Of a DNA stretch of 50,782 bases, positions 1,272-36,760 are shown piece by piece. Below the pieces are notes generated by a model. The model searched no databases. It was given only the letters and a program-made list of their open reading frames with translations, and was not told where the DNA came from. The position numbers were made by a program, and so were the translations under genes. The stretch spans positions 1 to 50,782 of the forward strand of contig CAMDHE010000017.1 in the NCBI GenBank assembly GCA_945898095.1, in the 5' to 3' direction. The stretch is from Roseateles toxinivorans. GTDB lineage: Bacteria; Pseudomonadota; Gammaproteobacteria; Burkholderiales; Burkholderiaceae_C. How positions within the stretch are numbered: position 1 is the stretch's first letter; every line of letters starts with the position of its first letter.

Positions 1272-1288
1272 GTCGACATTAAGTATAC
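1272..1288 (-). promoter_or_regulatory. Two-box GTnnAC element, copy 1
   Basis: On the minus strand the sequence reads GTATACTTAATGTCGAC. Both boxes (GTATAC and GTCGAC) match GTnnAC and their G residues are 11 bp apart, about one helical turn. TATACT inside it is also a good sigma-70 -10 hexamer, so a bound protein would block RNA polymerase. It lies 19 bases before the M81 start and 8 bases before the divergent enolase-family start, so it could control both. Confidence 0.6.
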
Positions 1289-1295
1289 TTTAATC

Positions 1296-2396
1296 ATGAA
1301 AATCGAAGCCATCGAGACCCGCGTCGTGCGCAAGGCGTTCGCCAAGGCACAGTGGAACCCACGCACACGTTGGAACGAGAAGGTTGTGGTGCTTGTGCTG
1401 CTGCGCGTGCAGGGCGGGCTGCTCGGTCTGGGCGAAGCGTATTGCGATGGGGGCGCACCTGAGTCGGTGCAGGCCATCATCGAGCGCGACTTTGCGCCCT
1501 TGGTGGTGGGGCGCAGCCTGTTCGATCTCGGCGCCCTGTCATCGTCACTGCGCGAGACCATGATCGTCAGCAGCAAGGGCGGCGCGGCCTGGGCTGCCAT
1601 GAGCGCTATCGACATTGCCCTCTGGGACGCTCTAGGCCAGGCGCTCGGCCAACCCGTCTGCACACTGCTCGGCGCGCAGCGCCGCCAAGTGCCCGCCTAC
1701 GCCAGCGCGGGCCTCTATGGCCAGGGCAAGACGATCGACGACCTGGTTGCAGAAATGAAGGGCTATGTCGATTTAGGCTTTCGTGGCGTCAAGCTGAAGA
1801 TCGGCGGCGTGCCAATCGCCGAAGATCTGGCGCGCGTGGCTGCCGTGCGCGAGGCCATCGGTCCCGGCGTGCGCCTGTTGGTAGACGCGCTGTACGCCTA
1901 CAGCGTGCCCGAAGCGCTGCGCGTGGCGCATGCGCTGGAGCGCTACGACATCGGTTTTCTCGAGGCGCCGGTGGCGCCAGACAACATCCCGGGCCTGGCC
2001 CGCGTAGCCGCGGCCAGCCCGGTGCCATTGGCGGGCAACGAGTTCGCCTACGGACTCGAAACCTTCACGCGGATCATCGAGTCGAACGCTGTGGCGGTGG
2101 CGCACTTGGACGCGATCCTTTGCGGCGGTATCAGCGAGGGGCTGCGGATCTCGGCGCTGGCCGCGTCGCGTCACGTGCCCGTATCGTTCCACGCCGCCTC
2201 GTCGGTGGTGTGCTTCGCCGCCAACTTGCAGCTCGCGGCAGCGGCACCCAACGTCGATTCGATCGAGTTCCACATGCTGCATCGCATGCTGTTTGACGAC
2301 TTGGCACAAGGTCGTTTCAAGCTCGTAGACGGTTGTGTCGAAGTGCCCGAGCAGCCGGGGCTCGGCCTGGACAACCACGCCTTAACCGCCACCTGA
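1296..2396 (+). CDS. Mandelate racemase/muconate lactonizing enzyme family protein
   Basis: A 366-residue enolase-superfamily enzyme; such proteins abstract a proton next to a carboxylate and then racemise, dehydrate or cycloisomerise. Visible landmarks are the KLKIG motif (KxK base), the metal ligands Asp in LLVDALYAY, Glu in FLEAPVAP and Glu in AGNEFAYG, and an Asp (HLDAILCGG) with a His (SFHAASS) as in the mandelate racemase subgroup. I chose ATG 1296 (MKIEAIETRVV), the normal family N-terminus, rather than the longer in-frame start inside the divergent gene. It is followed 18 bp later by a Bug solute-binding protein, so the pair probably imports and converts a carboxylate or sugar acid. 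The exact substrate cannot be read from the sequence. Confidence 0.85.
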   Translation: MKIEAIETRVVRKAFAKAQWNPRTRWNEKVVVLVLLRVQGGLLGLGEAYCDGGAPESVQAIIERDFAPLVVGRSLFDLGALSSSLRETMIVSSKGGAAWAAMSAIDIALWDALGQALGQPVCTLLGAQRRQVPAYASAGLYGQGKTIDDLVAEMKGYVDLGFRGVKLKIGGVPIAEDLARVAAVREAIGPGVRLLVDALYAYSVPEALRVAHALERYDIGFLEAPVAPDNIPGLARVAAASPVPLAGNEFAYGLETFTRIIESNAVAVAHLDAILCGGISEGLRISALAASRHVPVSFHAASSVVCFAANLQLAAAAPNVDSIEFHMLHRMLFDDLAQGRFKLVDGCVEVPEQPGLGLDNHALTAT

Positions 2397-2414
2397 ACCC
2401 AAGGAGTCTTGCCC

Positions 2415-3620: not shown

Positions 3621-3689
3621 TGGCTACAGGCCGGCGCTGGCAACGATCAACGGGGCAGTGCCTTGGTTTTTGTTTACCGCGGGCACTCC

Positions 3690-3706
3690 GTATACTATTT
3701 GTATGC
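3690..3706 (+). promoter_or_regulatory. Two-box GTnnAC element, copy 2
   Basis: The site reads GTATACTATTTGTATGC. Box 1 is perfect and box 2 (GTATGC) has one change; their spacing is 11 bp. TATACT at 3691-3696 is a likely -10 hexamer, 58 bases before the ALDH remnant start at 3754, so this is probably the promoter of the ALDH remnant, NTF2-like, MFS, glucosidase, Gfo/Idh operon. Confidence 0.55.
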
Positions 3707-3712
3707 GTAAAG

Positions 3713-3753: not shown

Positions 3754-3927
3754 ATGGCCATCAAGTCCTACTGGCAAAACTGGTTTGCCGGTGGCATCGA
3801 AACGCCGTTTGGTGGTGTTCGCCAGTCGGGCTATGGGCGAGACAAGGGCCAGGAGGCGGTGCTGAGCTACATCCGCACCAAGAACGTCGGCGTGCGGATC
3901 GTCAACGTCGATCCGTCCAAGTCCTGA
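3754..3927 (+). pseudogene. Internally deleted aldehyde dehydrogenase remnant
   Basis: A 57-codon frame with AGGGAG ribosome site and ATG start encodes MAIKSYWQN joined directly to the extreme C-terminus of an aldehyde dehydrogenase: WFAGGIETPFGGVRQSGYG and YIRTKNVGVRI. Normal ALDHs have about 480-500 residues, so over 400 are gone, including the catalytic Cys and Glu. The frame across the junction is intact. The gene leads an operon of intact genes, so the small frame may still serve to pass ribosomes and transcripts on. That it came from one ALDH with a deleted middle is inference; the N-terminal nine residues are too few to prove it. Confidence 0.7.
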
Positions 3928-5764: not shown

Positions 5765-7396
5765 GTGAACACCACTATGCCCGCAACGCCCTGGTGGCAA
5801 GGCGCCACGATCTACCAGATCTACCCGCTCTCTTTCGCCGACAGCAATGGCGACGGCATCGGCGACCTGCGCGGGGTCATCAACCACCTGGACCATGTTG
5901 CCCGCCTGGGTGTGGACGCCATCTGGCTCTGCCCCTTCCACGAAACACCGCTGCTGGACTGCGGCTACGACACCACCAACGCCAAGGCGGTAGACCCGCG
6001 CTTCGGCCAGCTGTCAGACTTCCATGATCTGGTGCGCGAAGCCCATGCCCGCGGCCTGAAGGTCATCGTCGACCAGGTCTATACCTACACCCACGAGCAC
6101 CACCCGTGGTTCACGGCCAGCCGCGCTAGCCGCCAAGGTGACAAACAGGACTGGTATGTGTGGGCGGATGCCAAGGCCGACGGCTCGGCGCCGAACAACT
6201 GGCTGTCGATTTTTGGCGGCCCGGCCTGGGAATGGGACTGCACGCGCCGCCAGTACTACATGACCACGTTCTTGCCCGGCATGCCGCACCTGGACGGCAA
6301 CCACCCCGAGGTGCGGCGCGAACTGCTGGACGTGGCGCGCTTCTGGTTCGACCAAGGCGCCGACGGCCTGCGGCTGGACGTCATCAACCTGCTGGCGCTA
6401 GACCCGCAGCTGCGCAGCAACCCCGCCGTAGCGGGCAGCGATCCGAAAGACATGCCGTTGGTGCCGATCTATGCCCAGCAGATGCTTTACGACGGCGCGC
6501 AGCCGCAGAACCTGGAGTTCATCGCCTCCTTGCGCGCACTGGCCGACACCTACCGCAAGGACACGGGTGGCAGCTTCCTGCTGGGCGAGGTGTCCAACCC
6601 CGACGTGATTGCCGAAGGCCGCCACTACAGCCAGGGCAGCGAGCGCCTGCACAGCTGCTACCACGTGCTGGCAGGTTATGGCGCCGCCTTTTCTGCAGCC
6701 GCATTGCGCGCCGACCTGGAAAGCTGGAACGACGACACCGGCTGGCCGACCTGGAGCTTCGGCAACCACGACACGATGCGTCCAATGACCCGCCTGGCCG
6801 GCCCCAACCCACCGCGCGAACTGGGCGCACTGCTGGTGGCGATCTTGGCCTGTCTGCGCGGCACCGTGCTGCTGTACCAGGGCGATGAGTTGGGGCTGCC
6901 CTGTGGCCAGGTACCTTACGACAAGCTGCGCGACCCGGCCACCAAACGTTTCTTCGGCCACTACATGCAGCGCGACGGCGCGCGCACGCCCATGCCGTGG
7001 TGGGGCAGTGAAGCGCAGGCGGGTTTTTCCAGCGCTGCAACGACCTGGCTGCCCTTGGGCGTGGGCCACGCTGCGTTGGCCGTGGATGTGCAGGAAGGGG
7101 AAGCCGGTTCGACCCTGCGGCAAAGCCGCGAACTGCTGGCCCTGCGACGGGCACAGCCGGCCCTGCGCGCAGGCACGCTGCACTTCATCGACAGCCCCGA
7201 GCCCGTGTTGGCCTTCGAACGCCGCCTGGGCAGCACGCGGCTGGCTTGCGCCTTCAACCTCAGCCCCGCACCCGCAGCACTGCCTTCCGCCTGGCCCGCG
7301 GCCTCAGCATCGCTGCTGGGCATGCCGCACCCCAATGGCCTCCTGCCTGCGTGGAGCTACGCAGTGCTGCGGCTTCCTGATGTACGTAGTGGCTAA
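5765..7396 (+). CDS. GH13 family alpha-glucosidase
   Basis: A 543-residue cytoplasmic glycoside hydrolase. The opening WWQGATIYQIYPLSFADSN and DGIGDLRGV are typical of oligosaccharide-cleaving GH13 enzymes. The catalytic nucleophile Asp is in GLRLDVINLL, the acid/base Glu in FLLGEVSNPD and the transition-state Asp in FGNHDTMR. GTG 5765 is the start, with AAGGA at 5751-5755. Odd feature: region I, normally DxVxNHTS or DxVxSHTS, reads DQVYTYTHEHHPWF, so the conserved His that contacts the substrate at subsite -1 appears to be Tyr. It lies between an MFS transporter and a Gfo/Idh enzyme and probably splits an imported alpha-glucoside. Confidence 0.88.
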   Translation: MNTTMPATPWWQGATIYQIYPLSFADSNGDGIGDLRGVINHLDHVARLGVDAIWLCPFHETPLLDCGYDTTNAKAVDPRFGQLSDFHDLVREAHARGLKVIVDQVYTYTHEHHPWFTASRASRQGDKQDWYVWADAKADGSAPNNWLSIFGGPAWEWDCTRRQYYMTTFLPGMPHLDGNHPEVRRELLDVARFWFDQGADGLRLDVINLLALDPQLRSNPAVAGSDPKDMPLVPIYAQQMLYDGAQPQNLEFIASLRALADTYRKDTGGSFLLGEVSNPDVIAEGRHYSQGSERLHSCYHVLAGYGAAFSAAALRADLESWNDDTGWPTWSFGNHDTMRPMTRLAGPNPPRELGALLVAILACLRGTVLLYQGDELGLPCGQVPYDKLRDPATKRFFGHYMQRDGARTPMPWWGSEAQAGFSSAATTWLPLGVGHAALAVDVQEGEAGSTLRQSRELLALRRAQPALRAGTLHFIDSPEPVLAFERRLGSTRLACAFNLSPAPAALPSAWPAASASLLGMPHPNGLLPAWSYAVLRLPDVRSG

Positions 7397-7412
7397 GGCC
7401 GGCCCGGCGGCA

Positions 7413-8387
7413 ATGCGCATGGGCCTGATCGGCGCTTCAGTCATTGCGCCCTGGGCCATCGTCGAACCCGCCAAACACCGCAAGCACGTGCAATTGCAAG
7501 CGGTGGCCGCACGCGACCCCGCGCGCGCGGCACGCTTTGCCGCCGAATACGGCGTGGCCCATGTCGCAGCCAGCTACGCCGACCTGGTGACACGCGACGA
7601 CATCGATGTGGTCTACATCGCCCTGCCCGCGTCCGAAAACCAACGCTGGGTGGTGGCCGCACTGCAAGCCGGCAAGGCGGTGCTGTGCGAAAAACCGCTG
7701 GCCGTAACCACCAGGCAAATCACGGTCATGTTCGATGCGGCCGAGGCCGCGCAGCGCCCGCTGTGGGAAGCCATGCATTACCGCCACCACCCGGCGATGC
7801 AGTTGTTTTTGGACACCGTGCGCGGCGGCGCGATCGGCACATTGCAGCGAGTGGAGGCCCGCTTCGTCGGCCACCTGCCCAACAAGCCGGGCGAAATCCG
7901 CTGGCAAGCCGCACTCGGTGGCGGCGCGACGATGGACCTGGGCTGCTATGCACTCCACGCCTTGCGCAACTTGCTGGGCGACCCACTGCGGGTGGTGTCG
8001 GCCCGGGCGCAGTTCGACGCCGGCATCGATGCCGCGCTCAGCGCCGACCTGGTCAGCGCCGGCGGCATTCCAGCGCACATGGCCTGCTCGTTTCTCGAAG
8101 CCGAGCACCGCTCGCAACTGCTGGCCTTCGGCAGCCACGGCAGCCTGCGCTTCGACAACTTCACCTCGCCCACTTGGCGCGGGCAGCTGCTGCTGGAGCA
8201 GAACGGTAGCCGCCGGTCACTGCCCATCACCCCAAGTTCGACCTATGCCATGCAGCTCGACTTTGTCAGCCGGCACTGGCTGGCGCCGCCCGAGAAGCAG
8301 CATCGCGTCGACAGCCTGGCCAACATGGCGCTGATCGAAGACGTGCTGCGGGCGGCAGGTTTGAGTTCACCGGACACGGCATCATGA
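7413..8387 (+). CDS. Gfo/Idh/MocA family oxidoreductase
   Basis: A 324-residue NAD(P)-dependent dehydrogenase of the glucose-fructose oxidoreductase/inositol dehydrogenase family. The N-terminal Rossmann fold starts MRMGLIGASVIAPWA; the EKPLAVT motif holds the conserved Lys-Pro pair; WEAMHYRHHPAM and GGGATMDLGCYALH belong to the C-terminal substrate domain. I chose ATG 7413 because it puts the glycine motif at the usual distance; ATG 7380, overlapping the glucosidase stop, is the alternative. Its place after a glucosidase suggests it oxidises a sugar or cyclitol released by that enzyme. Confidence 0.85.
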   Translation: MRMGLIGASVIAPWAIVEPAKHRKHVQLQAVAARDPARAARFAAEYGVAHVAASYADLVTRDDIDVVYIALPASENQRWVVAALQAGKAVLCEKPLAVTTRQITVMFDAAEAAQRPLWEAMHYRHHPAMQLFLDTVRGGAIGTLQRVEARFVGHLPNKPGEIRWQAALGGGATMDLGCYALHALRNLLGDPLRVVSARAQFDAGIDAALSADLVSAGGIPAHMACSFLEAEHRSQLLAFGSHGSLRFDNFTSPTWRGQLLLEQNGSRRSLPITPSSTYAMQLDFVSRHWLAPPEKQHRVDSLANMALIEDVLRAAGLSSPDTAS

Positions 8388-8611
8388 CCGAGCCCTCGAA
8401 CGCAGCATGATTGCGGCCGCAGCGGTTCTGACGAGGTCGAAGCAGGCGAATCTGGCCGAGTGGCAGCAGACCCCCGTTGGCGTGCTCGCCGGCCTGGCCA
8501 GGCGCTCAGTTGGCAAGGACGCTACGACCTTCACGCGCCAAGTCCGGCACCGCCGAAGTCGGTAGGCGATCCACTCGGCATGCCCAGCTTACGCACACCC
8601 ATGGAATGTTT

Positions 8612-8628
8612 GTATACTTATTGTCGCG
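8612..8628 (+). promoter_or_regulatory. Two-box GTnnAC element, copy 3
   Basis: The site reads GTATACTTATTGTCGCG: box 1 perfect, box 2 GTCGCG with the final AC changed, spacing 11 bp. TATACT at 8613-8618 can serve as -10. It lies 54 bases before the start of the aminotransferase remnant and is the only promoter-like sequence I see for the operon that runs to 16747. Confidence 0.55.
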
Positions 8629-8665
8629 TCAACGCACACAAACTCAGCACCTCGTCAGAACCCCG

Positions 8666-9055
8666 ATGACCGCCTCTGCCTTCCGTGACATTGCCATCGA
8701 ATGCTTCTTCACGCCGAAGCGGCTGGCCATCATCACCCTACCTCCGGGCGCCTTCGAGTCCACAAGCCGCGAGTTCGGCAGGGTGTTCAAGACGGCGGAC
8801 CACAGCACCACCTATGGCGGCAAGAACCAGCTCGGCATCGCCGCCGGCCGTGCGATGCTCGACATCGTGAAGAAAGAGAGCCTCGAAGACGCCGCCAAAG
8901 AACGTGGCGCGCAATTCATGGCCGGCCTGAGCGCACATGGCAACAACTTGCGCATCACGCCGCCACTGGTGATCAAGCCCGGGCAAGTGGAGCGTGCGCT
9001 GGCCGCTCTGGGTGAAGTTTTTGCCCGTGTAGTGCCGGCTTCGAAAACGGCATGA
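8666..9055 (+). pseudogene. Internally deleted class III aminotransferase remnant
   Basis: ATG 8666 opens a 129-codon frame. Its second half is the small domain of a PLP-dependent class III aminotransferase: HSTTYGGKNQLGIAAGRAM, LEDAAKERGAQFMAGL and LRITPPLVIKPGQVE. The large PLP-binding domain with the Schiff-base lysine is missing, so about 300 residues are gone. The N-terminal MTASAFRDIAIECFFTPKR may be the original start. Like the ALDH remnant it keeps a promoter-like element, a start and an in-frame C-terminus and it leads an operon of intact genes. The intact class III aminotransferase at 31968-33401 is clearly diverged from it. Confidence 0.7.
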
Positions 9056-9071
9056 CGGCTGCACGATAGCC

Positions 9072-10844
9072 ATGACAAAAATCGACCGCCTTTTTCTCAA
9101 CGGCCTTCTTTGGACCGGCGACGCGTCCCAGCCCGAAGCCGAGGCGCTGGCCGTGGGCGGCGAGATTATCGTGGCCGTGGGCAGCACGGCGCAGATGCGC
9201 GCGCTGGCCGGGCCGGGCGTGGAAGCGATAGACCTCGAAGGGCGCAGGGTGGTGCCCGGTTTCATCGACGCGCACTGGCACTTCTTGCCCGACTCGCGGG
9301 CCCGCTTTTTCATGGCCGATTCGCTGGCCGAGTTCCAGCGCCGGCTGAAAGCTTTGGCCGAGGCCGACCCCGGCGGCGGCTGGATCATCGACAGCGGCTG
9401 GGCTTACACCGACTTTCCTGACCACACACCGCACAGCCGCCACATCGACAGCGTGGTCGCCAACCGGCCCGTGTGGCTGACCGGCCGCGACGGGCACATG
9501 ATCTTGCTCAACAGCTTGGCGCTGCAGACTCTGCAGATCAGCGCGCACAGCGGCAACACAGCCAGTGACTGTGCCGTGCGCGACGCCCAGGGTCGGTTGA
9601 CAGGCGAGTTGCGCGGCATGGTGCCGCTCGAAGAACTCAGGTCCAAGCTGCCGCCGCTCAGCGCTAGCCAACTGGACGGTTTGCTGCGCGAGATCCAGGC
9701 CGAGGCCAATGCCTTTGGTATCACCAGCGTGCACAACCTGGACGAAGCCTTGGGCGACAACCTGCTGTGCCTGCAGCGTGCGCGCCAGCAAGGCTGGCTG
9801 GGGCTGAGGGTGCAACAGGCGCACCGCTTGTTGCCCGAGCCTGATGCAGCCCGCCTGGCGCTGTTGGACGAGCGCCGGCGCAGCACAGCGGGCGACATGA
9901 TGTTCAGCTTTAGCGGGCTGAAAGGCTGGCTCGATGGCACCATCGACGCCCGCACCGCCTACATGCGCGAGGCCCTGACAGACGGAAGCGCCGGACGGCC
10001 GTATTGGGACGGCCAGCAACTCAACGACACGGTGGCCTTGATGGACCGCCTGGGCTGGCAGGTGATGCTGCACGCCACGGGCGACGGCTCGATTGGCCAA
10101 GCCATCGTCGCCTATGAACACGCTGCACGGGTCAACGGCCCACGAGCCATCAACGCACGCCGCCACCGCATCGAACACATCGATGTCCCCAGCAACCAGG
10201 ACCTGTCGCGCTGTGCTCTTGCCGGCATCATGGCCAGCAGCCAGCCCAACTTCGCCTACCCCGACGACACTGTGCTGCACAACTACAGCAGCCTGCTCGG
10301 CAGCGAACGCACCACACGTGCCCAGTCTTATCGAGCCATTGACGAAGCCGGTGTGCGCCAGTGTTTCTCCAGCGACTACCCGGTGTCATCCATGGACGTG
10401 CTGCGATCGATTCACACTGCGGTGGAGCGACAACTCAGGGGCCATGACGGCGCAGAGCCCTGGATGCCACATCAACGCATCGGTGCCGAAGCCGCACTAC
10501 GCCACTTCACAGTCGACGGCGCCTATGCCGCGTTCCAAGACCATCGCAAGGGGCGGTTGGCGCGCGGCTTGCTGGCCGACATGACCGTGCTCAGCGACGA
10601 CATCCTCGACGACCCGCAACGTCGGCTTCTTGATAGCCACGTGCTGATGACGGTTCTCGGTGGCCGCATCGTGCACCAGACTACGCGCGCGGCAGCCGCG
10701 ACGCGTGCTCAGGCCACGTCGCCAATGCTGCGGCCACGCAGTGCCTGCCCGGCCTGTCGCAGCGTGAGCCTCGATCCTTTTCAACTGGCCGCGCGCGCCC
10801 ATCACAGCGCGGGTAATGCCAGCGCTTGGCGTCGCTACGCCTGA
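9072..10844 (+). CDS. Amidohydrolase family protein (YtcJ-like, Amidohydro_3)
   Basis: A 590-residue metal-dependent hydrolase. The strand-1 HxH motif is in GFIDAHWHF; GRDGHMILLN follows; the probable carboxylated Lys is in FSGLKGWLDGT; further His ligands are in LHATGDG and RHRIEHID, and the catalytic Asp in FSSDYPVSSMD. Relatives hydrolyse N-substituted formamides and other amides or imides. About 50 residues after HQTTRAAA extend past the usual end of the family and look unstructured and Arg/Ala/Ser-rich (including CPACR). It is followed by DadA-like oxidase and CocE-like hydrolase genes in the same operon, suggesting a pathway that breaks amides and then oxidises the amine or amino acid. 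Confidence 0.85.
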   Translation: MTKIDRLFLNGLLWTGDASQPEAEALAVGGEIIVAVGSTAQMRALAGPGVEAIDLEGRRVVPGFIDAHWHFLPDSRARFFMADSLAEFQRRLKALAEADPGGGWIIDSGWAYTDFPDHTPHSRHIDSVVANRPVWLTGRDGHMILLNSLALQTLQISAHSGNTASDCAVRDAQGRLTGELRGMVPLEELRSKLPPLSASQLDGLLREIQAEANAFGITSVHNLDEALGDNLLCLQRARQQGWLGLRVQQAHRLLPEPDAARLALLDERRRSTAGDMMFSFSGLKGWLDGTIDARTAYMREALTDGSAGRPYWDGQQLNDTVALMDRLGWQVMLHATGDGSIGQAIVAYEHAARVNGPRAINARRHRIEHIDVPSNQDLSRCALAGIMASSQPNFAYPDDTVLHNYSSLLGSERTTRAQSYRAIDEAGVRQCFSSDYPVSSMDVLRSIHTAVERQLRGHDGAEPWMPHQRIGAEAALRHFTVDGAYAAFQDHRKGRLARGLLADMTVLSDDILDDPQRRLLDSHVLMTVLGGRIVHQTTRAAAATRAQATSPMLRPRSACPACRSVSLDPFQLAARAHHSAGNASAWRRYA

Positions 10845-18094: not shown

Positions 18095-18108
18095 GAGACT
18101 GATCCTCC

Positions 18109-18486
18109 TCAAAGACAGAATACATGATGGCGAAAATATCCGGGGGCCGTTGCGCTTCGATGCGTCGGCGGCCTGTCTGCCTGCCCGCTGGCCTTGCGCG
18201 CTCGTGCTGTGCCTGATGGCAACGGGATCTCGCTTGGCTGGCGCGCGTCTTGGCAATGTGCCAACAGTCCTTTGGCCTGATCGATCCAGCGCCGGATCAT
18301 GGCCTGCTCGAGAGGACCGGCACCGATCACGGCGATGCGTTTCACGTTATTCAACGAAGGCGGCCAGCCCGAAGCCGAAGCGCGCTGCATAGCGCGCCGG
18401 GTGACATAGGACGCGGCGCGAAACAGGAACAGCAGTGCCGAAGGCGCGGCAAACGCTGTCAGCTGGACGACGGTGAGGTGCTGCAT
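18109..18486 (-). CDS. Unrecognised small frame between the two sulfatases
   Basis: A 125-codon frame fills the 400-bp gap between the sulfatase genes on the same strand. It starts MQHLTVVQLTAFAAP with one hydrophobic stretch (SALLFLFRAAS), then has KRIAVIGAGPLEQAM, which resembles a Rossmann nucleotide-binding start but lacks the third glycine, and ends in a basic low-complexity tail. It could be a fused remnant of two genes. I do not recognise a family and would not assign a function. Confidence 0.25.
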   Translation of the reverse strand: MQHLTVVQLTAFAAPSALLFLFRAASYVTRRAMQRASASGWPPSLNNVKRIAVIGAGPLEQAMIRRWIDQAKGLLAHCQDARQPSEIPLPSGTARARKASGQADRPPTHRSATAPGYFRHHVFCL

Positions 18487-25740: not shown

Positions 25741-25757
25741 GTGCACAGTCAGTATAC
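25741..25757 (-). promoter_or_regulatory. Two-box GTnnAC element, copy 4
   Basis: On the minus strand it reads GTATACTGACTGTGCAC; both boxes fit GTnnAC perfectly and are 11 bp apart. TATACT can be the -10 hexamer of the TonB receptor promoter, 40 to 56 bases before its start codon. Confidence 0.6.
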
Positions 25758-25893
25758 AAAAGATACACAAACTAATCCATAACAAACACACTGGTGAAAA
25801 CACGGGTGTGCCGCTGCGCGGATAGCCAACGCCGCGCCCGTTGCTGAATGAAAGAGCGGAGCAGAGGCGCGGGCTTGGCGGGCAGGCGGCCTG

Positions 25894-26190
25894 TCATCCG
25901 GCGTTGCGTGGCAACCACAACCGGTGCGTTCGTGGGTCGTCTGAGTCGATCCTGCTGTACGCAAATTGTGCACAGCTTATGCCGGCGACTCGGCTGGGAA
26001 AGGCCTCGGCGTGGGCCGCCCCCAGGCGCACGAGTGCCAACGCAGCCAGGCTGCCACCGCCGACGAGCAGGATCGTCACCAAGGACAACCACTGCACGCT
26101 GGAGGTGTCGGTAAGGCCGAGCACCATCTGCACGCCGCTGCTGGCAATCAAGGGCAGCGCGCACAGGTTGGCTTCGGGCAGACGTTTCAC
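25894..26190 (-). pseudogene. Probable membrane-protein remnant
   Basis: Directly after the FAD enzyme stop, the same strand encodes KRLPEANLCALPLIASSG, VQMVLGLTDTSS and LVTILLVGGGSLAALALVR, two hydrophobic helices that look like the C-terminus of a transporter. There is no plausible start (only an internal GTG) and the tail ISCAQFAYSRIDSDDP does not look native. I read it as a decayed permease end; the family is not certain (amino acid/polyamine antiporter is one option). The rest of 25,758-26,254 shows no gene. Confidence 0.4.
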
Positions 26191-27628: not shown

Positions 27629-27688
27629 GATGGGGACTCCGCGGTTGTCGACGGGCGCTCAATGCTCACCGCCGAAGCGTCAATTCTA

Positions 27689-27705
27689 GTATGCTATTTG
27701 TACAC
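27689..27705 (+). promoter_or_regulatory. Two-box GTnnAC element, copy 5
   Basis: The site reads GTATGCTATTTGTACAC: box 1 has one change (GTATGC), box 2 is perfect, spacing 11 bp. It lies between the divergent FAD oxidoreductase (start 27628) and the serine hydrolase remnant (start 27731), so it may serve both. Confidence 0.55.
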
Positions 27706-27730
27706 ATCAACACAAACTGCGTCGACTAAA

Positions 27731-28205
27731 GTGAACCTTGACCTCTGCCACCCTCGACGCCGCCACTTCATCGCTCGCACCGCCCGGGCTGTAACCGGCT
27801 TCGCGCTGCCCTCGCTGCTGACGCACAGCGCGTGGGCCCAGGCAGACTCCGCTGCTTCAGCCGCAAGGCCTCGAGCGGCAAGCCGCGGGGCCAGCACGCT
27901 GCAAAGCCTCGTCGACCGGCGGCGCTTGCCAGGCATGGCACTGCGCGTGGCGCGCCACGGCGCCATACTCGACGGGTCGGTGGGCCATCACCGTCACGAC
28001 CTTGGTGCGCTCTTTTTTCGGCCACCAAGCCGATGACCAGCGCCGTCTTGTTCACGCTGTTCGAAGAGGGCAGGTGGCTGTTCAGCGACCCGATCACCCG
28101 CCTTCTGCCCGAAGGGCCGACCTCAAGGTGGCCGGCACCGGCAAACCTCCGAAACGCCCGATCAGCATGTTCGACCCCCTGATCTATCAGGCACTCAAGG
28201 ACTGA
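27731..28205 (+). pseudogene. Decayed Tat-exported serine hydrolase (beta-lactamase fold), tandem copy of the next gene
   Basis: GTG 27731 opens a probable Tat signal (PRRRHFIARTARAV, then TGFALPSLLTHSAWAQ). The following text matches the intact neighbour: LVDRRRLPGMALRVARHG, then after a frameshift ATKPMTSAVLFTLFEEGRW, then after another frame change VAGTGKPPKRPISMFD. MFD is joined directly to PLIYQALKD and a stop, which is the last part of the intact protein. The junction lies at TTCGA (28170-28174), a five-base match that occurs at both ends of the missing 768-bp segment in the intact copy. Product cannot be functional. Confidence 0.85.
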
Positions 28206-29587: not shown

Positions 29588-30538
29588 ATGAACAAGGGCA
29601 AGAACCAACCGCTGTCAGGCAACGCGATGCCGCGCTTCGGCGGCATCGCAAGCATGATGCGGCTACCGCTGGCCGATTCGGCGCAAGGCCTGGACGCGGC
29701 CTTCATCGGCGTGCCACTGGACATCGGCACGTCGCACCGCCCCGGCGCGCGCTTCGGCCCGCGCCAGATCCGCGCCGAATCGGCGCTGATTCGGCCCTAC
29801 AACATGGCCACCGGCGCAGCGCCTTTCGACACGTTGCAGGTGGCCGACCTCGGTGATGTGCCGATCAATACCTACTCCATCGCCAAGTCGGTCGAGATCA
29901 TCCAAGCCTTCTACGAACCGGTGCTGGCGGCCGGCTGCCGCCCGTTGACACTCGGCGGTGATCACACGATCGCGCTGCCGATACTGCGCGCCCTGAAGGC
30001 GCGGTATGGGCCGGTTGCGTTGGTGCATGTGGACGCGCATGCCGATGTCAACGAGGCCATGTTCGGCGAGTCGATCGCGCATGGCACGCCCTTTCGGCGC
30101 GCCGTCGAAGAAGGCCTGCTACAAAACGAGCGCGTGTTCCAGATCGGCCTGCGCGGCACCGGCTATGCGGTCGACGACTTCGACTGGCCACGCTCACAGG
30201 GATTCACCCTCGTGCCGGCACACGAAGTCTGGCACCAGTCGCTTGCGCCCCTGATGGTCCGTGTGCGCGAGGTGATCGGCTCGGCGCCTTGCTACCTGAG
30301 TTTCGATATCGACGGTATCGACCCGGCCTTCGCCGGCGGCACCGGCACGCCCGAGATCGGTGGGCTGACCGTGCCACAGGCGCTGGAGATCGTGCGCGGC
30401 TGCCGCGGGCTGAACCTGGTCGGCGCCGACCTGGTGGAAGTCTCCCCACCCTACGATCCGAGCGGCAACACCGCGCTACTGGGCGCCAACCTGCTTTACG
30501 AAATGCTCTGCGTGCTGCCGGGCGTGGCGCACCGTTGA
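29588..30538 (+). CDS. speB: Agmatinase/guanidinobutyrase family ureohydrolase
   Basis: A 316-residue binuclear manganese enzyme that removes urea from a guanidino group. Metal ligands are seen in LGGDHTIALP, VHVDAHADVN and SFDIDGIDPAFAGGTGTPE. The N-terminus (GNAMPRFGGIASMMRLP) and the block GDVPINTYSIAKSV resemble guanidinobutyrase/guanidinopropionase-type enzymes more than E. coli agmatinase, so 4-guanidinobutyrate is a likely substrate; this is from memory of family sequences, not a search. AGGGGGC precedes ATG 29588. The adjacent polyamine permease remnant supports a guanidino-compound role. Confidence 0.88.
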   Translation: MNKGKNQPLSGNAMPRFGGIASMMRLPLADSAQGLDAAFIGVPLDIGTSHRPGARFGPRQIRAESALIRPYNMATGAAPFDTLQVADLGDVPINTYSIAKSVEIIQAFYEPVLAAGCRPLTLGGDHTIALPILRALKARYGPVALVHVDAHADVNEAMFGESIAHGTPFRRAVEEGLLQNERVFQIGLRGTGYAVDDFDWPRSQGFTLVPAHEVWHQSLAPLMVRVREVIGSAPCYLSFDIDGIDPAFAGGTGTPEIGGLTVPQALEIVRGCRGLNLVGADLVEVSPPYDPSGNTALLGANLLYEMLCVLPGVAHR

Positions 30539-30719: not shown

Positions 30720-31484
30720 TCAGCGTTCCCTGCTGCCGCCCAGCTTCATGCCGCCTGTGGGCCGCGATCCGAATTCGCGCAGGAAGCGGTTGCGCAAAAC
30801 ATCCAGATCGCGCGCGCCGGCCAGTTCGGCTGCTGCGAGATCCTGTTTTTCGATCGCCGCGACGATGCCGTTGTGCTCCGCGAAGTCCGATGTGGCGGGA
30901 CGGTCACCCTCGAAGAACGCACTCAGGCGGAAGAGCCTCTGGCCCTGGTCGAGCAACTGCCCCAGCCAGGCCGTGTAGGTCGGGTTGCCGCCGGCTTCAG
31001 CAATCAACATGTGGAATTCGCGGTTCTCCCGCAACTGGACCACCGGGTCCTTATCCTTCAAGAAGCGTCCGATCTGCTTGGCCTTGGCGACAATGGCCTT
31101 GAGTTCCGCATCGGTGCGGTACATCGCCGCCAGGCGGCAACTCACGCGGTACATCAGTTCCAGCGCATCGAGAAATCCTGGCACCTGGGCGATGTCGAAA
31201 GGTGTCACCACAGGGCTGCGATTGGGCAAGGTCTGGATCAGGCCTTCGGCCGACAAGCGAATCAGCGCCTCGCGCACGGGCGACCGAGAGAGTTCGAAAC
31301 GGCGGCCGAGCTCACTCTCGTCGAGCAGTGTTCCAGGCGCGATCTTCAGGTTCAGGATGTCGGCGCGTAGCGCGTCGTACACCGCGCTGGCACCCGTCCC
31401 ACGCGCCCGCGTCGGGGGTGGCTTGGCCGTGAGGACCCGTTTGGTCCCGGTGGTACGACCAGCCGTCGTCTTGCTCGCTGCCAT
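30720..31484 (-). CDS. GntR family transcriptional regulator (FCD domain)
   Basis: A 254-residue regulator. After a basic tail of about 30 residues comes the winged helix (SAVYDALRADILNLKIAPG, ESELGRRFELSRSPVREAL, EGLIQTLPNRSPVV), then an all-helical FCD ligand domain with probable metal-binding residues in REFHMLIAEAGG and AEHNGIVAAIE. FCD regulators bind TnGTnnACnA-type palindromes and are released by an organic acid. GGAGG fixes ATG 31484. It is the only regulator in the first 37 kb and a weak copy of the two-box element lies just upstream, so it is my candidate for the island regulator. Confidence 0.9.
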   Translation of the reverse strand: MAASKTTAGRTTGTKRVLTAKPPPTRARGTGASAVYDALRADILNLKIAPGTLLDESELGRRFELSRSPVREALIRLSAEGLIQTLPNRSPVVTPFDIAQVPGFLDALELMYRVSCRLAAMYRTDAELKAIVAKAKQIGRFLKDKDPVVQLRENREFHMLIAEAGGNPTYTAWLGQLLDQGQRLFRLSAFFEGDRPATSDFAEHNGIVAAIEKQDLAAAELAGARDLDVLRNRFLREFGSRPTGGMKLGGSRER

Positions 31485-31515: not shown

Positions 31516-31532
31516 GTATGCGTGATGTCCAA
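31516..31532 (+). promoter_or_regulatory. Two-box GTnnAC element, weak copy 6, upstream of gntR
   Basis: The plus strand reads GTATGCGTGATGTCCAA. Box 1 has one change and box 2 (GTCCAA) one change; the 11-bp spacing is kept. It lies 32 bases before the gntR start and could give autoregulation. On its own it would not be convincing. Confidence 0.35.
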
Positions 31533-31552: not shown

Positions 31553-31960
31553 TCAGTCCGCGCGCCGCTGCGCAAGGCCGATGCGCTGCGCCGGACTGCC
31601 TTCCTCAGCCATTGGCCACAGGTCTGCCATCATGAAACCTTCGGGGAAAGGGTCGTCGTCTTCGAGCACGTATTGGCAGTGGGCGGTGATCCATTCGGCG
31701 TCCATCAGAGCCAACACCCGGCCGCTGGGGATGTGCGTCGCCAACAGCTGCGCCTGTATCAAGGGCGCACCTGGCGCGGGCTTGGCAGCAACATTGAGCC
31801 ACTTCACAACGGCGCGCGGGTGCATGGCCTTTTTATGGATGAATCCGGCATCGCCGCGCTGAAGGCTTTCGACAGCGCGGGCCATCGCAGCCAGCAGCTC
31901 AGCTGGCGTCAAACCCAAGGCGCGGATGTCTTCGTTGCTGACCTGCGCAATCGCTGCCAT
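31553..31960 (-). pseudogene. Truncated ornithine cyclodeaminase/mu-crystallin-type gene
   Basis: A 135-codon frame whose first 90 residues match the N-terminus of the ornithine cyclodeaminase family: SNEDIRALGLTPAELLAAM, then HPRAVVKWLNVAAKP, then SGRVLALMDAEWITAH. After that residue the family would continue with the NAD-binding domain, but here it switches to YVLEDDDPFPEGFMMADLWP and ends. Normal length is about 310-340 residues. It lies 8 bases after the aminotransferase and before gntR, so a deletion has probably removed the Rossmann half while keeping the frame open. Confidence 0.6.
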
Positions 31961-31967: not shown

Positions 31968-33401
31968 TCAACGACCGTACGTCACACCCATCGCTTTTAG
32001 CTCGCCCATGGTGCTGACGATGCCCTGACGCAGCGTATCGACAACGAAGTCGACGTTGTCCCGCGTCAGCACGAAGGCGGGTGACATGATGTTCAGATGC
32101 ACGATGGAACGCACGATCAGGCCCAGCTTCTCGCAGTGGTTGGAAACCAGTTTGCCGACGTTCACGGCGTCGGGCAGTGTCTGCTTGGTCTGGCGGTCAG
32201 CGACGAACTCCACACACATCATCAGCTTGCGCCCGCGCACATTGCCAACGATGGGTAGGTCTTCCAGTTCGTGCAGGCGGCGCTCGAAGTAGCTGCCGAC
32301 ATCGTGCACATTACCCATCAGGTTCTCGCGCTCGACGATCTCCAGCGCCTTGAGCGAAGCCGCGCAGCACACCGGATGGCCCGAGTAGGTGTAGCCATGG
32401 CCGAAAAAGCGGTCGGGGTCGCCCTCGCTGATGACCTTGTAGATGCGGTCGGAGAACAGGCAGGCACCCAGTGGCAGGTAGCCCGAGGTCAGGCCCTTGG
32501 CGCAGGTGATGATGTCGGGCACGATGCCGAACTCGCCTTGCGAAGCGAACCAGTGGCCCAGCCGCCCGAAGGCGGTGACCACCTCGTCGGCGACATAGAG
32601 CACGTCGTACTTCTTGCACAGCGCATAGGTTCGTTGGTTGTAGCCCTCGGGCGGCACGATCACGCCGCCGGCGCCCATGATGGGCTCAGCGAAGAAGGCG
32701 CTCACCTTGTCGGGCCCGACGGCCAGAATCTTCTTCTCCAGTTCATCAACCAAAAAGTCGCAGAACTGGCCTTCGGTCATGCCCTCGGGCGCACGGTAGT
32801 GGTTGGGGCAACTGACGAAGTGCACGTTCTCTTCGAGGTACTCGTGCTCAGGAATGCGGTCCTTGCCGGTCAGCGACGCGGCCATGTAGGTGCTGCCGTG
32901 GAACCCCTGCAATCGCGCGATGAAGTGGCGCTTGGCCGGCAGGCCGCGGCAGCGCTGGTAGAAGTGCGCCAACCGCACTGCGCTGTCGATGGCCGTACTG
33001 CCGCCGCAGGTGAACATGACGCGGTTGATGTCGCCAGGGGCCAGTTGGGCCAGCCGCTGCGACAACTCCGCCGCGCGGGCATTGCCCATGTCCACAAAAG
33101 GATTGGCATAGGCCAGGCGCGACACCTGCTCGGCGATGGTGTCGGCCATCTCCTTGCGGCCCAGGCCGATGTTGGTGCACCAAAGGCCACCCACCGCATC
33201 GAAATAGCGGCGGCCCTGGATGTCGGTGATGTAGCAGCCCTCGCCGCGGTCGATCAGCAGCGCCCCCTCGGTCTTGAAGGAATCAAAGTGCTGCCAGGGA
33301 TGCAGGTGATGCCGGCGATCGGCCTCCCAAAGGGCCTGTGCGACGGGGGCCTGGGGCATGGCCGGGCTGCCATGCGCCGAGGGTACGGTTGCGGGATTCA
33401 T
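31968..33401 (-). CDS. Class III aminotransferase (omega-aminotransferase type)
   Basis: A 477-residue PLP enzyme. RYFDAVGGLWCTNIGLG, VMFTCGGSTAIDSAVR, FAEPIMGAGGVIVPPEGY and VLYVADEVVTAFGR are conserved blocks, with the PLP lysine in ITCAKGLTSGYLPLGA. Relatives move the amino group from beta-alanine, putrescine-like diamines or other omega-amino compounds to pyruvate. Near a ureohydrolase it could transaminate the amine left after urea removal. It is the first gene of the minus operon aminotransferase, cyclodeaminase remnant, gntR. Confidence 0.88.
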   Translation of the reverse strand: MNPATVPSAHGSPAMPQAPVAQALWEADRRHHLHPWQHFDSFKTEGALLIDRGEGCYITDIQGRRYFDAVGGLWCTNIGLGRKEMADTIAEQVSRLAYANPFVDMGNARAAELSQRLAQLAPGDINRVMFTCGGSTAIDSAVRLAHFYQRCRGLPAKRHFIARLQGFHGSTYMAASLTGKDRIPEHEYLEENVHFVSCPNHYRAPEGMTEGQFCDFLVDELEKKILAVGPDKVSAFFAEPIMGAGGVIVPPEGYNQRTYALCKKYDVLYVADEVVTAFGRLGHWFASQGEFGIVPDIITCAKGLTSGYLPLGACLFSDRIYKVISEGDPDRFFGHGYTYSGHPVCCAASLKALEIVERENLMGNVHDVGSYFERRLHELEDLPIVGNVRGRKLMMCVEFVADRQTKQTLPDAVNVGKLVSNHCEKLGLIVRSIVHLNIMSPAFVLTRDNVDFVVDTLRQGIVSTMGELKAMGVTYGR

Positions 33402-33444: not shown

Positions 33445-33461
33445 GTACACATTTAGTATAC
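33445..33461 (-). promoter_or_regulatory. Two-box GTnnAC element, copy 7
   Basis: On the minus strand it reads GTATACTAAATGTGTAC; both boxes fit GTnnAC and are 11 bp apart. It lies 44 to 60 bases before the aminotransferase start, with TATACT as possible -10. Confidence 0.6.
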
Positions 33462-33464
33462 AGT

Positions 33465-33794: not shown

Positions 33795-33811
33795 GCATAC
33801 AATTGGTCGAC
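33795..33811 (+). promoter_or_regulatory. Two-box GTnnAC element, copy 8
   Basis: The site reads GCATACAATTGGTCGAC: box 1 has one change (GCATAC), box 2 is perfect, spacing 11 bp. TACAAT inside it is a good -10, with TTGAAT at 33777-33782 as a loose -35. It lies 29 to 45 bases before the EthD gene. Confidence 0.5.
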
Positions 33812-33839: not shown

Positions 33840-34187
33840 ATGATCAAGGTGATGTGGTTCCTCAAGCGCGCTGAGCATCTCAGCTTGGCCGAGTTCCGCG
33901 ACTGGTGGCTGAACCACCACGCCGCCGACATCGCGGCCGACCAGAAGCCGTATCTCAAGCGCTACAAGGTCGACGTGCGCATCGCCGACGACTCGGCGTT
34001 CAGCGTGGGGCGCCCCGGCACCGACAGCCCCTGGGACGGCATTGCTGAGCAGTGGTTTGCGAGCATAGAAGACTACACCGCTGTCTACGGCCGGGCCGTG
34101 CGGCCCACGCGTGCCGACACGCTGGAGCACACCAGTCGCTTCGAGCGCCTGGTGGTCGAAGAGCACGACATTCCTGTCGACCGTTAA
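33840..34187 (+). CDS. EthD domain-containing protein
   Basis: A 115-residue ferredoxin-like alpha-beta barrel protein. MIKVMWFLKRAEHLSLAEF and RDWWLNHHAAD are the EthD start, with the usual His pair, and the C-terminal part AEQWFASIEDY closes the domain. EthD proteins assist ether or aromatic oxidation and some cyclise polyketides; the role here is unknown. AAGGAGG precedes ATG 33840. The SDR gene starts 8 bases later, so they form an operon. Confidence 0.8.
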   Translation: MIKVMWFLKRAEHLSLAEFRDWWLNHHAADIAADQKPYLKRYKVDVRIADDSAFSVGRPGTDSPWDGIAEQWFASIEDYTAVYGRAVRPTRADTLEHTSRFERLVVEEHDIPVDR

Positions 34188-34195
34188 GGCTCAGC

Positions 34196-35014
34196 ATGTC
34201 GAAGGCAAGCCCACAGAACGCACCCGGGCGTGTCGTCATCACCGGCGGCTCCGGCGGCATCGGCCGCGAGATCGTGGCCCGCTTTCTCGACGAGGGCTGC
34301 CATGTCGTGAACCTCGATCGCCTGGCCCCGGCTGAGCCGCCCATGCCAGGCTGCGATTTTGTGGCGGTCGATCTTCTCGACGTGGCCGCCATTCGCGCTG
34401 CCTTTGCGCAGATCGATAGCCATTTCGATGGCCAGGCGCCCGACGTGCTGGTGTGTGGTGCCGCCATCGGCATGACCCACCATGCGCTCGAGGTGCAGCC
34501 CGAGGATATGGACCGGGTGATGGGCATCAACGTGCGCGGCACGTTCTTCTGCGCCCAGGAAGCGGCCTTTCGCATGCGCCGCGCCAATGCCGGCCGCATC
34601 GTGGTTATCACCTCGCTGTGCGCCCACCAGGCCTGGGCCCAAGAGCCGCTTTACAACATCAGCAAGGCGGCGCAGCACGGTATGGTGCAAACGCTGGCGG
34701 TCGAATTGGCGCCCTTTAACATCCAGGTCAACGCAGTCGCCCCGGGCGTGGTGGAAGTGAAGAGCCAGGGCATGTCGGGCAACCGCGCCCGTCCGGAGAT
34801 CCTGCAGCACTATCACGACATCATTCCGGCGCGGCGATTTTGCACACCGCAGGAAGTCGCCGAGGCGATCTGGATGCTTGGCAAGGTCACCTACATGACC
34901 GGCCAGGCGATCACCATCGACGGCGGCGTGATGGCCAATGGCCTGGCCTACATCGGTTCGCTGCGTGACGATGTGCTGGCGCGCCTGGAGTCGAAGTTCC
35001 CGACTTCGACATAG
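34196..35014 (+). CDS. SDR family NAD(P)-dependent oxidoreductase
   Basis: A 272-residue short-chain dehydrogenase. The cofactor motif is ITGGSGGIGREI, the catalytic Ser is in VVITSLCAHQ and the Tyr/Lys pair in YNISKAAQHGM; DGGVMANG closes the fold. An Asp at the end of strand 2 (VVNLDRLAP) favours NAD over NADP. It shares an operon with EthD and converges with the FAD dehydrogenase across four bases. The substrate is an unknown alcohol or ketone. Confidence 0.87.
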   Translation: MSKASPQNAPGRVVITGGSGGIGREIVARFLDEGCHVVNLDRLAPAEPPMPGCDFVAVDLLDVAAIRAAFAQIDSHFDGQAPDVLVCGAAIGMTHHALEVQPEDMDRVMGINVRGTFFCAQEAAFRMRRANAGRIVVITSLCAHQAWAQEPLYNISKAAQHGMVQTLAVELAPFNIQVNAVAPGVVEVKSQGMSGNRARPEILQHYHDIIPARRFCTPQEVAEAIWMLGKVTYMTGQAITIDGGVMANGLAYIGSLRDDVLARLESKFPTST

Positions 35015-35018
35015 CCAC

Positions 35019-36722
35019 TCAGTCGGTCGCCACGGCCCTGCCGGCCAGATAGCCGAAGGTCAGGCCCGAACCGACCGTGATGCCGGCGCCGGGATAGGCG
35101 CCGCCCATTGCGCTGGCCATCTCGGTGCCGGCGGCGTAAAGCCCCGGTATTGGCGTCTGGTCTGGGCCGAGCACCCGGGCGCACGCATCGGTGCGCAAGC
35201 CGACAAAGGTGCCCAGATCGCCTGGCACAAGGCGAACGGCGTAGAACGGCCCATCGCGCAGCGGCGCGACGCATGGGTTGGGCTTGTGATCAGGGTCGCC
35301 GTTGGTGCACTGGTAGGCGTCACCACCCTTGTCGAAGGCGGGGTCCTGGCCTGCCTCGGCGTGGCGATTGAACTCCAAGACTGTCTGCTGCAAGCCAGCA
35401 GCGTCGATGCCGAGGCGCTGCGCCAACCCACCCAGGCTGTCGGCGCGCACCAAGTAGCCTGAGCGCAGGTGGGGCTCGAGCCGCCCCGGGAACGGCGGCG
35501 CCACGCCCAGGCCGTAACGCCGCTGCGCACGGTGGTCGGCGAGCAGGTAGACCTCGGCCTTCGGATCCCCGGCACAAGCGCGCAACATCGCCGGCACGAA
35601 CAAGTGGTAAGTGGTGGCCTCGCTGACGAAGCGCTGGCCTCGTCGATCGACGGCAATGATGCCCGGCTTGGCGCGGTCGCCGAAGTGCGGGAACGGCACG
35701 ATGCCGCGCGGTGTGGGCACCAGCGAGGTCGGCGCCCAAGCGGCCTGCTGCTGCACACTGGTTTCCAGCGAGGCACCCACGGCCAGGGCCATCGCGATGC
35801 CATCGCCTGTGTTTGACGACGCAGTCAGCGAGTGGTGCGCCTGGCCCGCGCCGACGTGGCGATAGTGCGCACGTGTCAACTCCGGGCTGGCGGGGAAGCC
35901 GCCACTGGCCAGGACGACGCCGCAGCGCGCGCGCATTTCTTCGATCTGACCATCGGCACGCTCGACACGAACGCCGACGACGCGCCCGCCCTCCCTCAGC
36001 AAGGCCACAGCGCGGGCCTGGGTCTCGACCGCGACGCCGCGACTTTCCAAGGCCAGCAACAGCCCCGCGATGACGCCGTTGCCCCCGCCAATGGCCGTGC
36101 CGCGTGGAAAGCCGCGCAGGCGATCGACCAGGTAGCGCACAACACGCTGACCGACCACCCAGGTCGAGCGCAGCGAACGGCCGACGCGGTAGTAGTGCGG
36201 CAGGTCAGCCCCATTGATGCTCATCCCGCCCAGGATCATGGTCGTCTCCAGCGGCGGACGCAGCGTGCGAAAGCGTGCGCCCAGGCGCCGGCCGTCGAAA
36301 GCGTTCGGCGACAGCGCGCGCGCACCTCGCGTGGCGCCGGGCAAGTCCGGGTGATAGTCGATCGAGCCGGCGGTCAGCGTCCAGCGCACCGCCGTGTGGT
36401 CCTCGACAAAGGCGAGGGCTTCAGCCGCAGTCTCGACATAGGCCTGCGCAAGCGCCGCGCGGTGATGGACGCCGGCGGCGGCTCGCAGATAGCGCAGCGC
36501 TGCTGCGGGGGAGTCGACTACCCCGGCCGCCCGGGCCTGCCGGCTGCCCGGCACCCAGACCATGGCCTCGGAGTGGGCAGTCGTGCCGCCGAGCAGTGCG
36601 ACCTTTTCCAACACCCGGACCCTCAATCCGCAGTGCGCTGCCGACAGCGCCGCGACCAAGCCCCCGATGCCTGAGCCGATCACGATCACATCATCTTCCG
36701 GGGGGAGTGCGGGTTTGCGCAT
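35019..36722 (-). CDS. FAD-binding dehydrogenase (fumarate reductase/3-ketosteroid dehydrogenase-like)
   Basis: A 567-residue flavoprotein with the FAD motif DVIVIGSGIGGLVAALSAA, then EKVALLGGTTAHSEAMVWVP and a C-terminal YAAGTEMASAMGGAYPGAG with GSGLTFGYLAGR. The two-domain layout matches the FAD_binding_2 group, which puts in or removes a C=C bond next to a carbonyl. The start at 36722 is the only one that places the FAD motif near the N-terminus. A weak copy of the two-box element lies upstream. Confidence 0.87.
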   Translation of the reverse strand: MRKPALPPEDDVIVIGSGIGGLVAALSAAHCGLRVRVLEKVALLGGTTAHSEAMVWVPGSRQARAAGVVDSPAAALRYLRAAAGVHHRAALAQAYVETAAEALAFVEDHTAVRWTLTAGSIDYHPDLPGATRGARALSPNAFDGRRLGARFRTLRPPLETTMILGGMSINGADLPHYYRVGRSLRSTWVVGQRVVRYLVDRLRGFPRGTAIGGGNGVIAGLLLALESRGVAVETQARAVALLREGGRVVGVRVERADGQIEEMRARCGVVLASGGFPASPELTRAHYRHVGAGQAHHSLTASSNTGDGIAMALAVGASLETSVQQQAAWAPTSLVPTPRGIVPFPHFGDRAKPGIIAVDRRGQRFVSEATTYHLFVPAMLRACAGDPKAEVYLLADHRAQRRYGLGVAPPFPGRLEPHLRSGYLVRADSLGGLAQRLGIDAAGLQQTVLEFNRHAEAGQDPAFDKGGDAYQCTNGDPDHKPNPCVAPLRDGPFYAVRLVPGDLGTFVGLRTDACARVLGPDQTPIPGLYAAGTEMASAMGGAYPGAGITVGSGLTFGYLAGRAVATD

Positions 36723-36743
36723 GGCGTGCAGGATCGGCTCAGA

Positions 36744-36760
36744 GTGAGCCTTTAGTGTAC
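36744..36760 (-). promoter_or_regulatory. Two-box GTnnAC element, weak copy 9
   Basis: On the minus strand it reads GTACACTAAAGGCTCAC. Box 1 (GTACAC) fits; box 2 (GCTCAC) has one change; spacing is 11 bp. It lies 22 to 38 bases before the FAD dehydrogenase start. Confidence 0.4.

Follow-up and report, generated by a model that had tools for sequence, protein, structure and literature searches.

The stretch analysed here, which we call the window, is a whole contig (C17) of 50,782 bases from the 4.7-Mb genome of Roseateles toxinivorans, and its positions 1 to ~36.8 kb resemble a catabolic island, probably one that degrades a compound. The island genes encode MlrC-family metallopeptidases, an enolase-superfamily enzyme, a TctC binding protein, SnoaL and MFS proteins, a GH13-type enzyme and a Gfo/Idh protein, together with Amidohydro_3 and DAO proteins, two S15/CocE hydrolases, an EamA protein, sulfatases, a TonB receptor, flavin adenine dinucleotide (FAD) oxidoreductases, a beta-lactamase-fold hydrolase, an arginase-family enzyme, a class III aminotransferase, an EthD protein, a short-chain dehydrogenase and a GntR regulator of the FCD type (30720-31484, minus strand). 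Past 36.8 kb the window carries AAA/DUF4143 and adenylosuccinate-lyase-type genes, among others. Repeated before many of the island genes is an operator-like element of two GTnnAC boxes 11 bp apart, with the consensus GTATACTnnnTGTnnAC, and its candidate binder is the island's own GntR protein.

A reading of the sequence alone had placed nine such elements at 1272, 3690, 8612, 25741, 27689, 31516, 33445, 33795 and 36744, and all nine hold the letters ascribed to them; those it called exact (1272, 25741 and 33445) have no mismatch to GTATACTnnnTGTnnAC. The others have one mismatch (3690, 27689), two (8612) or three (31516, 33795, 36744). The last of these sites is present, but a better register with two mismatches lies 11 bp on, at 36755, where both GTnnAC boxes are exact. 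In most cases a start codon lies 7 to 60 bases from the site. A search for the GntR protein across GTDB species returned two close relatives, L024 (77% identical) and L025 (75%), each of which sits in a cluster with many island genes in one of two distant genomes, G470 and G471, and it is with these clusters that the individual sites can be compared.

In the divergon of an MlrC-family gene and the enolase-superfamily (MR_MLE) gene (1296-2396, plus strand; PF13378 and PF02746), the latter a presumed target, operator GTATACTTAATGTCGAC (1272-1288, minus strand) has an identical 17-mer at G470 C6:94450, again between enolase and MlrC-family genes. Operator GTATACTATTTGTATGC (3690-3706, plus strand), followed by the remnant of an aldehyde dehydrogenase gene and by the SnoaL-MFS-GH13-Gfo/Idh run, shares 16 of 17 letters with G470 C6:92251 before an MFS homologue, and GTATACTTATTGTCGCG (8612-8628, plus strand), followed by the remnant of an aminotransferase gene and by the Amidohydro_3-DAO-S15-EamA run, scores 16.1 with a matrix built from G470 and G471 sites only. 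The presumed TonB-dependent receptor target (23434-25701, minus strand; PF00593 and PF07715), followed by S15, MlrC and sulfatase genes on the same strand, is preceded by GTATACTGACTGTGCAC (25741-25757, minus strand), and its homologues in G470 and G471 also have sites; what may be a third box of this array, GTGTAT, lies 11 bp beyond (25758-25768, minus strand; register 25752, matrix score 16.4). Operator GTATGCTATTTGTACAC (27689-27705, plus strand) stands between a beta-lactamase-fold hydrolase remnant and a presumed FAD-dependent oxidoreductase target (26255-27628, minus strand; PF12831), which has an 88% homologue in G470, and it matches G470 C6:80354, between homologous genes, at 16 of 17 letters.

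Upstream of gntR itself lies a weak operator (31516-31532, plus strand) that shares 13 of 17 letters with G470 C6:78281 upstream of the gntR there, a site with two exact boxes where that of the window is weak. The class III aminotransferase gene (31968-33401, minus strand; PF00202), presumably the first gene of the run that contains gntR downstream on the same strand, is preceded by GTATACTAAATGTGTAC (33445-33461, minus strand), with 15 of 17 letters in common with G470 C6:76785 before the 89% homologue, which adjoins gntR in G470. The presumed EthD-domain and short-chain dehydrogenase targets (33840-35014, plus strand; PF07110 and PF13561; EthD start ATG 33840) follow GCATACAATTGGTCGAC (33795-33811, plus strand), which agrees at 15 of 17 letters with G470 C6:76707 before an EthD homologue. 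Before the FAD_binding_2 dehydrogenase gene (35019-36722, minus strand; PF00890; start ATG 36722), also a presumed target, lies a possible three-box array (36744-36771, minus strand) whose best pair, 36755-36771, shares 15 of 17 letters with G471 C21:195431 before the homologue; a second array of three boxes may be present at 25741-25768. With same-strand gene runs taken as operons, the claim that the element precedes most of them is fair; approximately nine runs or divergons are preceded by sites, but the gaps before 16763-18256 (246 bp) and before 29588-30538 (161 bp) have none. Beyond 36.8 kb the window holds no match with up to two mismatches.

Several operators precede gene remnants, and the island therefore looks rearranged. 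The likely remnants are an aldehyde dehydrogenase C-terminus at 3754-3927 (PF00171), an aminotransferase fragment at 8666-9055 (PF00202 just under the cut-off), a segment at 27662-28036 that resembles the hydrolase at 28242 by eye and has no Pfam match, and a 135-residue open reading frame (ORF) at 31553-31960 whose match to proline racemase (E 0.014) falls below threshold. Separately, an extra 11-bp pair, GTACGCAAATTGTGCAC (25957-25973, score 12.3), in the intergenic region between the TonB receptor and FAD oxidoreductase genes is a possible additional site.

The pattern is concentrated on this contig, so that the genome scan named with the sequence-only reading as a possible refutation did not refute it. 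With zero or one mismatch, GTATACTnnnTGTnnAC occurs at five places in the 4.7-Mb genome and all five lie here (binomial 1.5e-10); with up to two mismatches, 7 of 53 rows fall on this contig, which makes up 1.1% of the genome. These own-genome figures are optimistic because the motif was derived from these very sites. Forty first-order (dinucleotide) random sequences gave no match with zero or one mismatch, compared with five in the window, and 0.45 two-mismatch matches per sequence, compared with two. The spacing peaks at 11 bp in the island's intergenic DNA, where exact GTnnAC pairs number four at distance 11 and zero or one at other distances, and pairs with at most one mismatch number 11 at distance 11, followed by eight at distance 22. 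A genome-wide regulon was rejected: the loose pair GTnnAC-N5-GTnnAC has no clear genome-wide enrichment, with 25 places in the own genome against 52 for the reversed control (five of the 25 in the window, one of them, 16544, intragenic), 62 against 59 in G470 and 50 against 35 in G471, and among 147 other relatives, in which the best GntR relatives reach no more than 38% identity, three carry a single exact site apiece.

Conservation before orthologous genes, the second check put forward with the sequence-only reading, was found in both other genomes. Inside the 22-kb G470 cluster fall three of the four rows with zero or one mismatch and six of the 46 with up to two (0.14 of the 46 expected), and inside the 16-kb G471 cluster one of three and six of 34 rows (five places; 0.09 places expected), with the borders of both clusters set after the fact. 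Homologues with a site are the enolase/MlrC pair (the identical 17-mer), MFS, FAD oxidoreductase/hydrolase, aminotransferase, EthD, gntR and FAD_binding_2 genes, with the TonB site less alike; the start codons used for G470 and G471 are unrefined match edges, and some G471 sites lie within the 5′ end of a mechanical ORF. Across eight orthologous pairs (six from G470 and two from G471, the G470 TonB site left out and 8612 partnerless), 117 of 136 site letters are identical versus 117 of 400 flank letters. At the five positions that the pattern leaves open, 31 of 40 letters agree in orthologous pairs, versus a mean of 1.48 of 5 for sites of different genes. Each promoter thus retains its own version of the operator. 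A matrix built from 12 G470 and G471 sites finds nine window places at a score of at least 13, all nine intergenic by a hand-made gene table in which frameless remnants count as intergenic, 8.9% of the window is non-coding and two starts are displaced by 3 and 9 bases (36725 for 36722, 33831 for 33840) with no effect on any site; 1000 column-permuted matrices gave a mean of 0.34 intergenic places and a maximum of five, and none equalled the real matrix.

The window GntR scores 59.5 bits for PF00392 (cut-off 27) and 61.2 bits for PF07729 (cut-off 24.3), which places it in the FCD subfamily; its start, ATG 31484, was picked by comparison with L024. Besides the protein itself, we found one homologue (42%) in 399 family genomes and 15 at 37-49% in 398 phylum genomes, with no close relative in 399 order genomes and none of at least 60% identity on plasmids. 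The GT-Nx-AC form typical of operators of this subfamily appears both before the presumed targets and before the genes of the homologues themselves. At 22 loci with 39-47% homologues and quite different neighbours, 17 have GTCGAC in the 400 bp that precede gntR (28 sites), and 17 of the 28 sites have a GTnnAC partner with at most one mismatch 11 bp away; at the other distances from 7 to 33 bp the counts reach at most eight of 28 (eight at 29 bp, seven at 25 bp, six at 8 and 27 bp). In a test devised after the sites were seen, the half-box GTAT/GTCG lies 11 bp away at 19 of 28 sites (12 loci), with none at 7-10 or 12 bp, and with eight at 29 bp and seven at 25 bp, distances that look like those between arrays.

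An earlier count over 21 loci of this clade likewise put distance 11 highest (13 pairs in nine loci; next highest, eight), and a more distant group gave two pairs, both in L052, which at 39.4% identity was placed in the distant group for that count and later moved to the clade. Near-duplicates were dropped (L042, L043 and L053 from the clade, L023 from the distant group), and L059 (36%) counts as distant. The locus L039 shows two full GTnnAC boxes, GTCGACACGAAGTCGAC. On pSymB of S. meliloti 1021, GTATTTCTTTTGTCGAC lies upstream of a 43% GntR gene located by tblastn and GTCGACAAATAAAATAC between it and a dihydrodipicolinate synthase (DHDPS) gene, both ~9-13 kb from proline racemase genes; we take this to be the hydroxyproline (hyp) region and its GntR to be the published hypR. 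At L040 (41% to the window GntR), gntR sits between proline racemase and DHDPS genes. More generally, the GntR homologues at L035, L036 and L040 are encoded near genes for DHDPS, proline racemase, phosphonate transport or hydantoinase, and close to them GTCGAC is accompanied, at 11 bp, by GTAT/GGAT-type boxes; at L036 these boxes precede neighbour genes rather than gntR.

On these comparisons of sequence we propose, with a probability of roughly 0.8, that the FCD GntR encoded in the island uses these sites as its operators, on which phased dimers would repress the island until released by an inducer derived from the compound. The choice of GntR as binder, already suggested in the sequence-only reading, gains support from the related clusters and from the boxes upstream of the homologues, which have an unusual wing in common with it. 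Each GTnnAC box would be the site of one GntR dimer, as in Atu1419, and two or sometimes three boxes 11 bp apart would set neighbouring dimers on one helix face, where binding is probably cooperative. The first box coincides with a putative TATACT/TATGCT-like -10 facing a gene at 1272, 3690, 8612, 25741, 27689 and 33445; the second box would then fall close to the start site, and dimers bound in an array would keep RNA polymerase off. GntR may also repress its own gene, and it would be released by a product of the compound imported and broken down through the island. Kinship with HypR-like regulators suggests that this inducer is amino-acid-like or imino-acid-like, yet the window yielded no hyp genes.

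Several observations weigh against the proposal. In the island's intergenic DNA the spacing peak is nearly gone once two mismatches are allowed (29 pairs at distance 11, 28 at distance 9), and at a matrix score of 12 the window has 16 places, 11 intergenic and five within genes. The G470 and G471 sites were found with the window consensus, so that only their places and open letters are independent; one match with zero or one mismatch in G470 and two in G471 lie outside the clusters, and no orthologue of operator 8612 was found in either cluster. The G471 sites are weaker, and the TonB site there keeps just 10 of the 17 letters of operator 25741 and none of the five open ones. Among the homologues, just 11 of 24 clade loci combine an exact box with a second one, of no more than one mismatch, 11 bp away, five of the 22 loci have no usable GTCGAC upstream of gntR (L036, L046, L048, L057 and L051, the last covered for 58 bp upstream and showing GTATTTGTCCTGTCGAC), and the loci are not independent, with L040, L051 and L054-L056 alike and L037, L038 and L058 alike. 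The degenerate two-box pattern also matches three other places in a 49-kb stretch of pSymB. Since a consensus scan of one region found no full sigma-70 promoter, we infer the -10 assignment rather than observe it. Two further points arise from published systems: the S. coelicolor HypR motif, CTNTGC(A/C)ATGTCAC (PMC6608401), looks unlike the window motif, and the cooperativity of NanR requires a 32-residue N-terminal extension (PMC8012715), a long N-terminus that is apparently not general in the clade, since approximately 33 residues precede the helix-turn-helix in the window GntR and candidate starts give shorter N-termini in many array-carrying members.

Known regulators offer likenesses on both counts, box and repeat. 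Atu1419 of Agrobacterium fabrum, a VanR-group FCD GntR, binds ATGTATACAT as a dimer in which Arg45 reads the G of GTATAC; one of its sites overlaps the -10, and it represses its own and other catabolic genes (PMC7797058). The recognition helix SRSPVR of the window GntR aligns with SRTPVR of Atu1419, giving a common S-R-(S/T)-P-V-R with Arg kept at the place of Arg45, whereas Atu1419 uses single palindromes 190 bp apart, looped by a tetramer, and has a different wing (PMC7797058). Tandem repeats as in the window are known for the E. coli FCD GntR NanR, which binds two or three close repeats cooperatively and more weakly at longer spacing (PMC8012715); its repeats are GGTATA in place of GTnnAC, and the occupation of one window array by several dimers is a prediction by analogy. 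BusR, also a winged helix-turn-helix protein, recognises a pair of boxes with constant spacing on a single DNA face, but its boxes are 22 bp apart and the protein is tetrameric, with a coiled-coil ruler and RCK_C in place of FCD (PMC8517857). The window GntR is kin to the HypR-type GntR proteins of hydroxyproline and proline utilisation (PMC5343134), with 43% identity to the pSymB GntR beside a DHDPS gene, and HypR boxes are listed with two nucleotides between GT and AC (PMC4494728). The presumed window targets are other enzymes, however, and none of the window genes searched is a hyp-type epimerase or DHDPS-like deaminase gene, a DHDPS gene or an intact proline racemase gene. Because hyp genes were not found among them, we class the regulator, as judged from its sequence, as a relative of HypR and not as HypR itself.

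The alternative that survives best, though we consider it unlikely, is that a single dimer binds one GTnnAC box and that the second box is a helper read by an NRS wing or a basic RxRGxG arm. The clade does carry such features: the wing reads NR[SNT] in all 24 members (L024 and L025 included) and an arm xx[RK]GxG directly precedes helix 1 in 21 of 24, whereas neither occurs in any of 11 distant FCD regulators (29-38% identity). A wing can touch DNA, as His65 and Gly66 do in FadR (PMC4494728). In line with a helper box, Atu1419 binds one palindrome (PMC7797058), and often one box is stronger (GTCGAC) and its partner degenerate (GTATTT, GTATTC). Both boxes can nevertheless be full GTnnAC palindromes, as at 33445, 36755 and L039, and the secondary 22-bp peak in the window's intergenic DNA better fits repeated dimer sites. 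The same protein features allow a tentative and broader hypothesis, to which we give somewhat less than even odds, that a whole subfamily of HypR-like FCD GntR repressors, in which NR[SNT] replaces the common glycine wing and a basic RxRGxG arm is present, reads phased GTnnAC arrays at 11-bp spacing, with dimers in a row along one promoter face and a wing and arm that evolved for packing. The predicted GntR structure, with a mean predicted local distance difference test (pLDDT) score of 43.7, is too poor for use on the six-helix FCD domain or a tetramer.

It is improbable that a regulator other than the cluster GntR binds the operator. GntR binding is a prediction, and an IclR gene lies at 47270-48118. 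Against such a regulator, GntR is the only window regulator found in both other clusters, by a comparison in which the G470 and G471 clusters were not searched for other regulators. The absence of any match with up to two mismatches beyond 36.8 kb leaves no site near the IclR gene, and the two other cluster stretches contain no relative of the IclR protein (best E 2.1), so this gene was rejected as the source of the binder; in addition, homologous GntR genes with other neighbours show the same upstream architecture. We regard it as very improbable that the pattern is a shared -10 plus chance, or a set of duplicated copies of one promoter, since, even though TATACT/TATGCT faces a gene in six sites and the remnants behind several sites indicate that rearrangement occurred, the flanks of eight window sites are on average 29% identical (38% maximum), which argues against duplication, the conservation of the second box, spacing and open letters between orthologues excludes the -10 as sole explanation, and matches with zero or one mismatch are absent from the rest of the genome. 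The sequence-only reading had already held that a TATACT -10 is insufficient by itself, and sites such as those at 195431 and 202452 in G471 lack TATACT.

The regulator family, the GTnnAC box and extra boxes near GntR sites are already known, and we consider the island to contain a new regulon and a phased-operator variant within that known family. Suvorova et al. (2015) described, for 23 groups, weaker boxes that lie 7-12 nucleotides away from the GntR palindrome centre (PMC4494728); compared with such half-boxes, reported in bulk, those described here lie at one fixed distance, are sometimes full palindromes and belong to one protein subfamily. The term undescribed regulon holds insofar as no report of it appears among the open-access papers listed, but needs tempering for a regulator that is kin to HypR and a family in which extra boxes are on record. 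As far as the open-access matches listed show, the new elements are the island regulon and the link of a wing-signature subfamily to a fixed 11-bp phased array. The predicted regulon, with approximately nine operator regions and one regulator, makes the island's substrate searchable, as its inducer should release GntR, and the tie between wing signature and spacing renders specificity and cooperativity directly testable in the very large GntR family.

Two observations from G471 touch on related targets and on the substrate. Outside the cluster, at C41:16965-16981, lies a perfect palindromic version of the operator, GTATACTACATGTATAC, possibly an extra target of the related regulator. Within locus L025, a GH38 alpha-mannosidase-type ORF (6609-9860) has a site near its 5′ end and precedes gntR, in a cluster whose counterpart in the window has GH13 instead; the presence of GH38 in one and GH13 in the other hints at a glycosylated substrate.

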